Below are positions 43,430 to 50,471 of a DNA stretch of 64,000 bases, piece by piece. The notes beneath the pieces are model-generated. The model was not told the DNA's origin and ran no database searches. It was given only the letters and a program-made list of their open reading frames with translations. Both the position numbers and the translations under genes were made by a program. Location: positions 8,184,001 through 8,248,000 of the forward strand of contig NC_003281.10 in the NCBI RefSeq assembly GCF_000002985.6, given 5' to 3'. Position 1 is the stretch's first letter; the number at the start of each line of letters is the position of its first letter. Source of the stretch: Caenorhabditis elegans. Lineage: Eukaryota; Nematoda; Chromadorea; Rhabditida; Rhabditidae.

Positions 43430-45872
43430 CGGGTACCACTATTGTTGCTCTTTTAATAGTTGTGCTCAATTAAAGTGGAATTTCTATCCATAGTGTTCAG
43501 AGTTCCTTCACTCAAACCAATACATCAACACTCACTCACTCACGCAGTTCGCTCACTGCTCTGAGCGTCTTCTCGTCGTTTTGTGCGCGAGCGCCCGAGA
43601 CAGACACGAGAGAAGCGTCCACTGGCCATCTCCGCAAAACAGGGACGACGAAATAATATGAAGCGTTGTGGAGAAGCTGTAGAAACGCAGAGACGAAACG
43701 CCTCGTGATTCGGGTCAGCCCCACCGGTCGAGCCTGCGTCTCAACGGCGTTCGCCGTTTCTCGTAAAGAATGAGTGCCCGCGTCCAGACCGGCGTGTTAT
43801 ATGTCAGCTGATTTTCGTTCAAATCGTCGTTGCCCATTTCGCCGTGTGGAAGAAGAAGATCACACGACGAATCGTTTGATAGGATTCTTCATTTCCTATT
43901 CCAATTCTATTTTATGGAATGTGAAGTCTGAATATCTCATCTTATATCCATAGGCTTACTGGGATTACTTACATCCTCGTTAATAGAATTAGAAGCCATC
44001 TAAATCTAGACGGAGTACGGTAGTCAGGATGATGTGTTGAAAAATGATTTTTAGAAATGTGCTCTCTTTATACAGATGCTCAAATTATTCATCGTATTTG
44101 AATCTGGAAAAATGGTTTAGAATAATATTAAGCTATTCTAAGTCTATTCTAAGTACGAAGTAGGTAAATTGCAAAGTTATAGTTTCTTCTGGGTTACTGT
44201 ATAATGTTGTTTATCGAGTGCACTCGAGTGCTCTTATTCTTGTTTTTTGCTTGAGCCCACTACAAGACTCCCACTACAACTTTTACTGCTCATTCGACAA
44301 CCAGATTATGCTTATTTTTGTTTTCTCACTCTCCCGTTCTGTTTTTTTTCACGGGCAGTTACACCACAACAACCAGCAGAGAATGGGCAAAATATACATT
44401 TATTTGTCCACAAATAAACAGAACACTCTTCTTTTCGTCGTCTTCAGACACCCGTTTCATTCTTCTGAATATCCTTGAAAAAAAGTAATATGTGACTTTT
44501 TGGCCTCTTCCCCCCACTCGCATGATGCTTTATTGGTCTCGCAGCATCTATATATTTCGTAGAGAATGTGAGGTTTTAGGAGTAGACAAGACGAATGTTT
44601 TTTATAGTCATGTACTTTGCTCCGGCTGGTACCGACATTTGAGAGAGTCCCCGGAGGCGCCGAACACATTAGACATGCGTGTAGACGAACAATGAATAAA
44701 AAGGAATTTATGATGAAGAGCCTCTATACTCGTATATAGAAAATTGAACTAAAAGAAAGTTATTTTTAAAATTTTGCTTCAGCTTTTTCTTTCGTTTCCT
44801 TTTATGACGTTAATTTTAAAAGACGAGCCTATAGTCTAGTATCAAGAGTTCGCTCGAAATAGAAACGTTCGTCGTGAGAAAGTTTTGAATCTTCTGAATC
44901 CTCTCTTTCCAGTAATCCTAATAGCTAATTTCATTTCATCTTTTTCATGAAGAACCACTAAACTATTTTGTGATTCGAATCTATAACCTATCCTAATTCG
45001 TCCTTGGCGTCAAGTTAAACCACCTGGCCAGTTAGGTCTTCCATTATTATCTTTTCTCAACAAATATCTTAATCTATAAACTTCTTTCATTTTTTTCCTC
45101 CAAATAAGGAGCGTGCGCCCATCATCACTTAATTCTGAATGTTATATCCGCCATCTGCATTTTATTCAATGCCAAAGTACAAGCCAAGGACTACTGATAC
45201 TGAAAAAGACAGATGTCGGGGTGGATGACAAAGAAGAGGCGGGTAGAACTATGAAGACGAAGGTCGTTTCAATGGATGTGGTGGTGGCCAGGTGTTCTGT
45301 TTAGTGTCAGATTCATTCTCAACCTTTATCGATGTCTTTATTGGTTACGCTTCTGGTTTCTGGGTAACCACCGCTCTCACTGAAGTTCGTTCTGTTTTGC
45401 TCGCAGATATTTCAAAACTTCACTGCCAATGACGGAAAAAATATTTTAATGAAATTTTATAATATGTCCCATTTTGACACTGTTGTAAATAGAAAATTTC
45501 TGAAAATATTCAAATTTTCTTCGTTTTCGTGGCAAATCTTAAATATTTATCATCTCCTAAATATGTGAGCTAATTGGATTTTTTGAATAAGAGACTAATG
45601 AATGATTATATCTGTGCATCCTATTTTTCATCGAATTTCCGCTCTGACGTCAGTAACTGCAGTAAACACGCTCACTTTTCCAGCAACTAGTCGGTGTGCA
45701 CTCTCTTGCTTTTCCTACTTTTTTCAATTCTTCAGAAAGACATGCGCTTCGTTTATTCATTCTTTTTCCCAGAATATCTTTTATTTCAGATCCATTTTAT
45801 CCACGAGCAACGAATGTTTTTCTTCTAATTTTCTCCGTCCATCATCTATAGTCTCGTATTGTGTTTGAATCC
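43430..45872. promoter_or_regulatory. Upstream region of fbxl-1 with a GC-rich island
   Basis: 2.4 kb without a supported gene. The segment 43530-43850 is clearly richer in G+C and CpG than its surroundings and contains TCACTCACTCACGC and the hairpin AACGGCG-TT-CGCCGTT (about 43743-43758). This fits a promoter or first non-coding exon of fbxl-1. The rest is ordinary AT-rich DNA. Confidence 0.5.
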
Positions 45873-48140
45873 ATGGAGACGGCTGAACGAATAAGTGCTG
45901 CGGCATCTGCAGCAAGCTCGAGACGTGCCAAAAGATTGGCTCAACAAGCTCATAAGACTCATCCTGTCATTCAAGCCAAACAAAATCAGGTAAAATTTTA
46001 GTGATTTTTATTTTAAACTATAATACATAGTTTTTTTAGATGTACTTGATTACGACGCTTTCACCAGCTCAAGTCGATAATTCTCTAATCAATCGTGTTC
46101 TACCAAAGGAAGTTCTGCTCAAGTGAGACATTGATTTATAAAGCTGTTATAATCTTCATCACATTTCAGAGTTTTCTCATTTCTTGACACCAAAGCCCTC
46201 TGTCGATCGGCTCAGGTCTGCCGCTCATGGAGCATACTTGCGTTGGATGGATCTAACTGGCAGCGCGTCGACTTATTCACATTTCAAAGAGATGTCAAAA
46301 CTGCAGTTGTCGAGAACTTGGCACGTCGTTGTGGAGGATTCTTGAAGGAACTTTCATTGAAAGGATGTGAGAATGTGCATGATTCAGCTCTCCGAACATT
46401 CACATCGAGATGTCCAAATTTGGAACATTTGAGTCTTTATCGTTGTAAACGGGTTACCGATGCGTCATGCGAAAACCTAGGTCGATACTGTCACAAGTTG
46501 AATTACCTCAATTTGGAGAATTGCTCATCAATTACTGATAGAGCAATGAAATATATTGGGTAACTAAACGAAGTTTTTATGCCTTTAAAGTAAATTTAAA
46601 TTTCAGCGATGGATGTCCAAATTTATCATATCTCAACATTTCATGGTGTGATGCTATTCAGGATCGTGGTGTTCAGATTATTCTCTCAAATTGCAAGTCA
46701 CTCGATACTCTGATCCTTCGTGGTTGTGAAGGACTTACTGAGAATGTGTTCGGATCTGTCGAAGCTCACATGGGAGCTATCAAGAAACTGAATCTTCTGC
46801 AATGCTTCGTAAGCAAACATTTTAAATGAAACAATTTTCGATAATTACTGTTTTCAGCAGCTCACCGATATTACAGTTCAAAATATTGCAAATGGAGCTA
46901 CCGCTTTGGAATATCTGTGCATGTCAAATTGCAATCAAATATCTGATAGATCATTGGTATCTCTTGGACAACATTCTCATAATTTGAAAGTACTGGAATT
47001 ATCTGGATGCACACTTCTCGGAGATAATGGATTTATTCCACTTGCCAGAGGATGTCGTCAATTGGAACGACTTGATATGGAAGATTGTTCCCTAATTTCT
47101 GATCACACTATCAACTCACTTGCAAACAACTGTACGGCTCTTCGTGAGCTCAGTCTTTCACATTGCGAACTTATTACGGACGAGTCGATTCAGAATTTAG
47201 CCTCGAAACACCGTGAAACGTTGAATGTTCTGGAACTTGACAATTGCCCGCAGTTAACTGATTCCACGTTATCTCATCTGAGACATTGCAAAGCTCTCAA
47301 GAGAATTGATTTGTATGATTGCCAAAATGTTTCAAAAGAAGCAATCGTTCGATTTCAGGTATGTTATATTTCATATTACAAACTTAAATACGATTTTATT
47401 AAAAAATCAAAAACATCTCTGAAATCTATTTTTTTTTTAATATTACCCAGAAAAAATTTGCAATTTTCGGGCAAAAAATACAGTACCCGGTCTCGACACG
47501 ACAATTTTTTGTTAAATGCAAAGAGGTGTGCGCCTTTAAAGAGTACTGTAATTTCAAACGTTCGTTTCTGCGGAATTTTCGTGGTTTTTCATAGTTTCTC
47601 GACGAAAATAAAATAATTTATTTTTAAAACTTAAATATAACAAAAAAAATTAAACGACAGTACAAAGGCGCACACTTTTTGCACATAGCAAAAAATTGTC
47701 GTGCCGAGACCGGTTACCGTATTTATTACATGTTCTCCTATTTCAGCATCATCGCCCAAACATCGAAATTCATGCCTATTTTGCACCGGTCACTCCACCA
47801 ACGGATCAGGTCGTAAACCGCGGTGGTATGTTGTTTTAAAAAAGAGCCCGCGAATATATATATAATATTCGCATGGTAATTATCCATTTTTCTCTCTTCA
47901 CACAAACACTTTCAACTTGCACACATCTCTTTCAATTTATCGAATACAATCAGGCACACCCGGTCTCAAAAGGTATGTAAAAAGAAACAAACTGAAGGCA
48001 TGGTGTGGCTGGTTGACACACGAATCTAACAAAATTGCGTGAATCTCTAGACTTAATACTACTTATTAGATTTCAATTCATTCATCTATTGCTCAATTAT
48101 TTATTTTTCAGGTATATGTAGATGCTGTGTTATCTTATGA
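45873..48140 (+). CDS. fbxl-1: FBXL-1, F-box and leucine-rich repeat protein (FBXL2/FBXL20 type)
   Basis: Exons 45873-45989, 46040-46122, 46170-46559, 46607-46808, 46858-47358, 47747-47825 and 48112-48140 give 1401 nt, 466 residues. An F-box (LPKEVLLKVFSFLDTKALCR, then VCRSWSILALDGSNWQ) spans about residues 57-100. It is followed by around a dozen cysteine-containing LRRs (for example LSLYRCKRVTDASC). The tail HAYFAPVTPP matches vertebrate FBXL2/FBXL20. Role by family: substrate adaptor of an SCF ubiquitin ligase. Joining 47825 to 48112 ends the protein in CRCCVIL, a CAAX-type prenylation motif as in FBXL2. Including a 19-nt exon at 47954-47972 changes frame and ends it in TPGLKRYM at 48121, without the motif; both forms are 466 residues. 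The intron before 47747 carries repeat family B. Confidence 0.95.
47479..47722. repeat. Inverted-repeat element (family B) in fbxl-1 intron
   Basis: The left arm (ACCCGGTCTCGACACGACAA, then GTGCGCCTTTAAAGAG) is mirrored by the right arm (AAAGGCGCACAC..., TTGTCGTGCCGAGACCGG). Relatives occur at 51054-51340 and at the right edge of the window. Confidence 0.85.
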
Positions 48141-48657
48141 CTGCATCTATGTGCCCTGTTCTACGCGATCTACAGAAAACTGGTACAAACTGACGAAATT
48201 GACGAAGTCTGACATCAACAGGGCACCGTGCGCTCACCGGGTTGAGGCACAACTTTGGTATTCAATTAAAAATGTTCTGAAATTTTGAAGCTTAACTATT
48301 CAGTAGATTTATATTGTTTCTTGGAAATTCTTCATCTATTGCCCGCTATTTTTTGTATTCCTTCGTTTCTATCCTGATCCTACTGTAGCTACTGGTAAAT
48401 TTGTTGAAATTGTTTCCAAAGGGAAATCGGTGTAAACACGCTCCATAGAATTTTATGAATACGTTTTGTTTTTCTTCGGCGTCTGCTTTTCTCATGACTG
48501 TACATTTTTTTTCAATTCGAAATTATTTTCTTTTTCTGTCAAGAATAAAATACTTGCCCTCTTTACAAATTCATCAACGCGTCAGTTCTTGTTATTTTCT
48601 ACACTTTTTATTTCTTCAAATCTGGATTATTCATTGAAATAATATTCCAGATTAGAA

Positions 48658-50471
48658 ATGGCGCACACCAGCGATGGATGGGGAGCTCCATATGATAATG
48701 TACGTCAATTGATAGAAGAAAAAGTAAAAAGTTAAACATGATTTGCAAATATTTCGTCACAGAAAAACATATTCGGACCAGAAATTTTTTGTTTTAAGTT
48801 TGAAAAAAAAGCATAAGTTTAGATTTTACCAAAAAAAATCCCAATACATTATTCCAATATTACCGACGTAGTTTCCAAATTTTAAGCAAACCTACGTCGA
48901 AGCTTACGAACAACTGGAAATTGCACTTTTGGAGCCACTTGATCGTATTCTTGAAACGGCAAATGTTGAAGAGTTTCGTCCAAAGTTCAAAAACCATCAG
49001 GATCCAAATGATAGAAAAAATAAGAAAAATAACGATGAAGAATGGAGAGATTCCATTTATAATATCGCAACGGATGAATCGGATACTGATGATCATGAGC
49101 AGAGAAAGAACTTTTTTCAACCACCACTTCAAGTTCAAAGAAACTCATTCGTTAAGAATACTCTGATGGAATTCAAAAGATCTTCTCAAATTGATATCAG
49201 CCGACTTGCTGTGATGGGATGTGGAGAAATGTCGTTGGAGAAAGGAATATGTGAATATCTTGGATCTTTTGGAACTATCAATGTTCTTTCTGTCGATATT
49301 GATGAGCCTTCGTTGTCTATTGGACAACAGTTGCTGGGGTGAGTTGAGCTACATCTCATTTTAGATTTCCCATAAATATATTACTTTTGAAGTAAAGCTG
49401 AATCTATTTTTTTAAGAAAACATTTGGAACGTAATGCAGAGATCTTAGCTGTGGAAACAGGACTTCCAGTGCTGATGCGATCATATGTCGGAGATATTCT
49501 TGAACCAGATCATCGCTTTGCCGATGTTGATGCGATCGTCTCAATGGAAGTGTGAGAATTTAAAAATTTTCCACCAATCGATAATACGTAAATTATTTCA
49601 GCGTTGAACACATCCCTCTTCCAAATGCGAAAAAATTTGTCGAAAATGTTCTGGGGACTTTGATGCCACGCATTTTCATTTTTTCTACGCCAAATCATGA
49701 ATATAATGCAGTATTTGGAATGGAGCCTGGCGAGTTTCGACATGGCGATCATAAATTTGAGATGAATAGGAAAGAGTTCTCGAATTGGCTGGAAGAGCTT
49801 TCAATTCGTTTTCCGCATTATCAAATCGATCCACCACATTACATCGGAATGACACGTGGCTACGAGAATCTCAGTGGTGCTTCTCAGGCTGCAGTATGTC
49901 GCCTCCAAGTAGATCTCAACACAACTCTTCCGCAAGAAGTTACACCATACGAAATGGTTCCTAAATTATTAAATATTGTTTAATTAGATTTTTATTTTCT
50001 CAGGTTGGGCACTTGCCGTGCAGATTGGGATCCCGATTGATTGCTTATAATCTTGTGAAAGAAGCTTTTTTGGATTGGTTGGAAAAGATTGAGCTTCAAG
50101 AGCACGAACCGAGAACGGTAGGTAACAAATTATTCAGATAACTGTAGATATACTATTTTTAAACATTTCACAATATTAGCATAATTTCAGGACGGCTACT
50201 CTCCTTATTGGATTTTTAATGTCCAAAACATTCTTCATCATCTGAAAGCGCCGGTCAGCTTTGCTCTCACTATTGATGAAAAAGTAGCAATGCAAGTTTC
50301 TTCAGTAATCGGAACAGTTGAATTTTAAATCTTATTTTCAGAAAATACATTCAAGGAATGACCAGTCGCAAAGTTCATGCCGAATATTCACACGGTTTTA
50401 ATGGTATTGTCATTTTACAAATGCATTCAAAGGAAGAGCTCATCAAAACGGTTCAAGATAATACACTTTAA
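48658..50471 (+). CDS. henn-1: HENN-1, small-RNA 2'-O-methyltransferase (HEN1 family)
   Basis: Exons 48658-48699, 48887-49338, 49417-49551, 49602-49956, 50004-50117, 50191-50291 and 50342-50471 sum to 1329 nt, 442 residues. The SAM-binding motif is seen as VMGCGEMSLEKG. The HEN1 metal site is intact: EVVEH (about residue 210) and the later STPNHEYN. The downstream FRHGDHKFEMNRKEF matches the family. It adds a 2'-O-methyl group to the 3' end of Piwi-class small RNAs (21U RNAs and ERGO-1 26G RNAs), protecting them. An acceptor 7 bp before the ATG suggests trans-splicing. To read through to the stop at 50471 the last intron must begin with GC at 50292. Using the GT four bases later gives a short unrelated tail. 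fbxl-1 lies about 520 bp upstream on the same strand. Confidence 0.94.

Follow-up and report, generated by a model that had tools for sequence, protein, structure and literature searches.

The window analysed here, a 64,000-nt stretch of C. elegans chromosome III (positions 8184001-8248000 of a 13.78-Mb contig), carries the gene fbxl-1 (C02F5.7; name as in papers) at window positions 45873-48140 on the plus strand, and genome searches covered seven contigs of 100.3 Mb. The translation of the joined exons fits the published deletion p.Phe105_Lys308del, with residues F105 and K308 in agreement with the description in PMC9462489. Pfam placed an F-box-like domain at residues 60-102, and several LRR models scored over their cut-offs. 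By sequence, fbxl-1 is an FBXL2/FBXL20-type gene, predicted to encode a substrate adaptor of an SCF ubiquitin ligase. A deletion of fbxl-1 serves as an FBXL4 disease model in a 2022 paper (PMC9462489), although the sequence is of the FBXL2/FBXL20 type. The features of the gene are collected in Table 1.

Table 1. Features of fbxl-1 in window coordinates
Feature	Position	Strand	Evidence
Exons common to all forms (F-box and LRR repeats)	45873-45989, 46040-46122, 46170-46559, 46607-46808, 46858-47358, 47747-47825	+	Joined translation; FBXL2 alignment from residue 52; Pfam F-box-like and LRR
Last exon common to all forms, encoding HAYFAPVTPP	47747-47825	+	10/10 identical to FBXL2
5' splice site of the CVIL-forming junction, GTG/GTATGT	47826-47831	+	Outscores 135/144 training donors
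TAA stop reached when the last shared exon is extended (by 5' splice site 47972 or by retention)	47837-47839	+	461 residues, end RGGMLF
Candidate 19-nt microexon, GCACACCCGGTCTCAAAAG	47954-47972	+	Acceptor outscored by every one of the 144 in training; pair score no higher than chance gives
Strong 5' splice site AAG/GTATGT: the microexon's end, or an alternative 5' site that lengthens the last shared exon	47973-47978	+	Outscores 140/144 training donors; equalled in 20/5000 shuffles
Final coding segment of the CVIL form (GICRCCVIL), with stop TGA at 48138-48140	48112-48140	+	Acceptor outscores 139/144
Stop in the microexon frame, TAG	48119-48121	+	Translation

Intron 5 contains an inverted-repeat element (47473-47727) whose arms, 47473-47525 and 47675-47727, are 85% complementary; it belongs to a dispersed family with at least 111 matches, a count that includes the element itself and each of its arms (40 of 1466 candidates scored). 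A HEN1-like gene, presumably henn-1, lies at 48544-49983 (PDB Hen1, E 1.2e-11; ATG at 48658), with a CAG acceptor about 107 nt past the fbxl-1 AATAAA, an operon-like spacing. The last intron also has an AT-rich hairpin formed by a 23-nt palindrome (47850-47872), to which we gave no weight. A repeat origin of the candidate exon was rejected, as 47747-48140 matched only itself in the genome; a structured RNA known to Rfam was also rejected, since nothing in 44000-50000 reached the gathering score. No relative turned up among viral or prokaryote sequences, where pattern searches gave 1 and 2 hits, respectively, none of them confirmed. The three other HAYFAP-encoding places in the genome (4 matches in total) showed no F-box/LRR frame by eye, and a 21-residue tail query gave no match.

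Predicted ends of FBXL-1

The initial annotation proposed that a 19-nt microexon decides whether FBXL-1 ends in a prenylation motif. Translation confirmed that the donor after 47825, the acceptor before 48112, the exon at 47954-47972, the frames and the tails were all exact. Joining 47825 to 48112 gave a product of 466 residues ending in RGGICRCCVIL, and inclusion of the microexon gave a product of the same length, as had been claimed, ending in RGGTPGLKRYM. In translation only, one splice form ends in a CaaX box and another does not. The equal lengths carry no weight, because in the shifted frame a TAG falls by chance seven bases into the last exon. With 19 nt, CAG before it and GTATGT after it, the candidate lies within the size and border limits of C. 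elegans microexons (at most 27 nt, AG before, GT after). An in-frame acceptor at 48070 (480 residues, also ending in GICRCCVIL) was rejected as a very poor site of 0.7 bits; an exon that starts at 47954 and is not spliced again (486 residues, end SNKIA) was also rejected, as nothing favours it.

Conservation of the CVIL tail

We compared the CVIL form of FBXL-1 with PDB sequences. The best match was FBXL2 (PDB chain 6o60_C) with 449.2 bits over query residues 52-466, reaching the last residue of both proteins and identical at 204 of the 415 aligned positions, while the second-best among the 26 PDB sequences matched, FBXL17, reached 126.6 bits. No FBXL4 chain was among these 26 sequences, matched at E 0.001. 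Identity differed by segment: HAYFAPVTPP was fully conserved, the linker after it kept 1 of 8 residues, and the last nine residues kept 7. The last seven residues, CRCCVIL, were identical in FBXL-1 and 6o60_C and occurred only in the 47825-48112 product, so that the proposed match of RGGICRCCVIL to the CVIL tail of FBXL2 was borne out. The microexon form gave 439.6 bits, with an alignment that ended at residue 451.

Judged by this alignment, the match of the CVIL tail to FBXL2 is far beyond chance. An identical tail after a freely changing linker argues for selection on CRCCVIL, and hence for use of the 47825/48112 junction. The CVIL form is very likely real, which is our firmest result and is independent of RNA data.

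Splice-site strengths in the last intron

Splice-site matrices were trained on 144 short introns flanked by open frames in the window and 200 kb around it; the set is not an annotated one, having been picked within these 264 kb for open flanking frames, and its members are self-selected for score. Measured against them, the donor after 47972, the acceptor before 48112 (TTATTTTTCAG/G, as read from the sequence) and the donor after 47825 each outscored most training sites (Table 1), whereas acceptor 47954 (ACAATCAG) scored under every acceptor of this main set. It carries A at both -6 and -5, while T stands at -5 in 140 of the 144 training acceptors and none of the 144 lacks T at both positions. 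The acceptors of fbxl-1 introns 1-5 and of 48112 have T at both, those of introns 2-5 lying within the FBXL2-aligned part. Over twelve retraining variants, acceptor 47954 was at or near the bottom in 10, its rank ranging from 0/144; in the two loosest and least pure training sets it stood above 104/390 and 71/301. The rank of donor 47972 over the twelve variants ran from about 70% to 97%.

We then compared the candidate with chance. Of 5000 dinucleotide shuffles of the intron, 2384 reached its summed splice score, as did 3322 of 5000 genomic windows taken at random; a donor matching 47972 in strength arose in only 20 of the shuffles and 71 of the windows. The description of the microexon as a good one was thus not borne out, its acceptor ranking under 144/144 and its pair score being reached in nearly half of the shuffles. 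The unusual element in the last intron is donor 47972, not the microexon. With only the donor standing out, simple use of 47972 as an alternative 5' splice site accounts for the sequence no less well than a microexon. The microexon reading depends on a poor acceptor, of a kind that may occur in regulated exons. The UUUUCAG-like 3' splice site of a functional C. elegans microexon is not present at 47954. According to PMC4889670, only the AG is more conserved in the 3' splice site than U at -5, and a daf-12 intron in which this U was changed to G was no longer spliced; at 47954 the base is A, not G.

The proposal that a splice choice decides the prenylation motif held in part: every product that uses donor 47972 or retains the intron would lack CRCCVIL, but the strength attributed to the microexon did not hold, its acceptor being very poor.

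Motifs around the candidate exon

Motif counts in the intron were made post hoc with eight patterns and are uncorrected. The intron contains nine CAC motifs, a count that 56 of 5000 windows reach. Seven of these lie in a 76-nt stretch around the candidate exon, a density reached by 26 of 20000 windows, and there are two copies of GCATG (69 of 5000). No enrichment in the intron was seen for GCAC, TGTTGT-like, GTGTG or CTAAC/T patterns (reached in 495, 1133, 779 and 1572 of 5000 windows), and TGCATG and T6 were absent from it. Such motifs are linked to MEC-8/RBPMS and FOX-1/ASD-1. In a PRP-40 study, exc-7 and asd-1 motifs are reported as weakly enriched downstream of microexons (PMC8378409).

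Prenylation enzymes

In the published account, GGTase-III geranylgeranylates FBXL2, its alpha subunit PTAR1 holding on to the LRR domain through contacts that include A398, Y399, F400, R86, W165 and R190; in vitro, FBXL2 was also modified by GGTase-I (PMC9141697). The FBXL2 pathway is itself disputed, since another group names Ykt6 as the only protein that GGTase-III modifies (PMC12001115). PTAR1 has been reported absent from C. elegans (PMC3904817, PMC12001115). Our genome search revealed two alpha-type (PF01239) and three beta-type prenyltransferase genes, which fits FTase, GGTase-I and GGTase-II without GGTase-III. No PTAR1 gene was found by PF01239 in a six-frame exon search of the genome, which could miss divergent copies. 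Three weak PPTA matches were rejected as not prenyltransferases by eye, one of them resembling phosphatidylserine decarboxylase.

Given the reported absence of PTAR1, GGTase-I is the likely enzyme for worm FBXL-1. The initial annotation had extended the modification of vertebrate FBXL2 to the worm tail; the CVIL tail is present, but in an animal reported to lack PTAR1 of GGTase-III (PMC3904817, PMC12001115). FBXL-1 keeps 5 of the 6 PTAR1-contact residues of FBXL2, with R86 replaced by K. With PTAR1 reported absent, these contacts and the HAYFAPVTPP loop (47771-47800) are probably kept for another purpose, such as the fold or substrate binding.

Discussion

Beyond the gene identity, frames, tail conservation and splice-site strengths observed here, the best overall explanation, to which we give an even chance, is a main CVIL product together with a minor soluble form that arises via donor 47972 or retention. 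The conserved main product would join 47825 to 48112 and end in CRCCVIL as a CaaX box, which GGTase-I would geranylgeranylate, keeping the SCF ligase on membranes. Donor 47972 would most simply act as an alternative 5' splice site, giving the 461-residue product, and less simply through the 19-nt exon. Either use, or intron retention, would remove the acceptor cysteine and leave the F-box, LRR domain and docking loop intact. The resulting non-CVIL product, if made at all, would be a soluble adaptor and probably a minor form. Against such a form, donor 47972 could be unused, its rank being only about 70% of training donors in some variants. Overall, some non-CVIL form of FBXL-1 is plausible, and the predicted switch between membrane and soluble pools is possible.

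We also considered that no junction but 47825 to 48112 forms in vivo. Donor 47972 and the 19-nt exon would then be products of chance or at most splicing noise. Chance often yields a microexon of such a score, this one has a very poor acceptor, and 47825 and 48112 form a strong pair that gives a conserved product; yet a donor as strong as 47972 is improbable by chance in this intron, both in shuffles and in real windows, and we consider this account rather unlikely. Isoform names bear on the question as well: a letter suffix, as in C02F5.7a, suggests more than one annotated isoform. C02F5.7a is cited in PMC4232591, which hints at more than one isoform and counts against a single junction, without showing where the forms differ.

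A regulated non-triplet microexon at 47954-47972, switching FBXL-1 from a membrane CVIL form to a soluble TPGLKRYM form and probably dependent on PRP-40, is possible but not favoured by the sequence, and we regard it as unlikely. Its borders are exact, its flanking introns both exceed 100 nt and its donor is strong; CAC is dense around it and GCATG occurs twice, both noted post hoc, and the C02F5.7a name in print means that more than one isoform is probably annotated. However, T is missing from both -5 and -6 of its acceptor, ACAATCAG, which falls under the whole main set, and its pair score is readily equalled in shuffles. Annotated fbxl-1 forms, which we take to have 461 and 466 residues, would fit extension or retention rather than the microexon. 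The worm gene tnt-3 does have a non-triplet microexon, of 28 nt, which depends on PRP-40 (PMC13247117), but worm microexons are described as mostly frame-keeping (PMC8378409), whereas 19 nt shifts the frame, and the loss of daf-12 intron splicing on change of the -5 U to G (PMC4889670) also speaks against this acceptor. A more elaborate account combines these elements: a soluble SCF adaptor that keeps its LRR domain whole, made through donor 47972 by microexon or extended exon and controlled by PRP-40 together with RNA-binding proteins bound to the CAC and GCATG motifs, would compete with the membrane pool in chosen tissues, splicing having taken over the control of lipidation after the loss of GGTase-III. 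We consider this combination very unlikely.

Like FBXL2 and FBXL20, FBXL-1 has an F-box and LRR architecture, with HAYFAPVTPP and the CRCCVIL tail matched in the comparison with FBXL2. Unlike them, its tail lies behind a possible splice choice, in a worm reportedly without the PTAR1 of GGTase-III. Splice-gated CaaX tails are already known, and fbxl-1, if confirmed, would join them. In Drosophila complexin 7A/7B, alternative splicing likewise decides the CaaX end, but through an alternative exon 7, with both isoforms proven and in a protein that is no ubiquitin-ligase adaptor (PMC10312600), where fbxl-1 would use a 19-nt exon or an alternative 5' site. Of the OAS1 p46/p42 splice forms, the one with CaaX goes to membranes and the one without remains in the cytosol, much as predicted for the locations of FBXL-1, though the choice in OAS1 is set by a human SNP and not by a microexon (PMC6950736). 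In tnt-3, a tiny frame-shifting exon also recodes the C-terminus; it changes 83 residues, is conserved and was tested in animals (PMC13247117), whereas the candidate fbxl-1 microexon would recode the last nine. Work on worm Rab proteins likewise deals with splice variants that have or lack a prenylation motif (PMC3504004).

In the passages on C02F5.7 covered here, tail isoforms of fbxl-1 are not described, though they may already have been detected or annotated, and 'fbxl' is absent from the main texts of the worm splicing papers PMC13247117, PMC12287369, PMC8378409 and PMC12084633. In the excerpts found on CaaX, prenylation or splicing, no such splice switch is described for FBXL2 or FBXL20.

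The FBXL2-type identity of fbxl-1 bears on the use of the fbxl-1 mutant as a model of FBXL4 disease as presented in PMC9462489. If a non-CVIL isoform is made, RNA splicing would determine whether this ubiquitin-ligase adaptor is anchored to membranes, and C. elegans allows each tail to be tested by single edits. Even without a switch, CVIL persists where GGTase-III is reported absent, which would make fbxl-1 a natural test of whether GGTase-I suffices for such a ligase.
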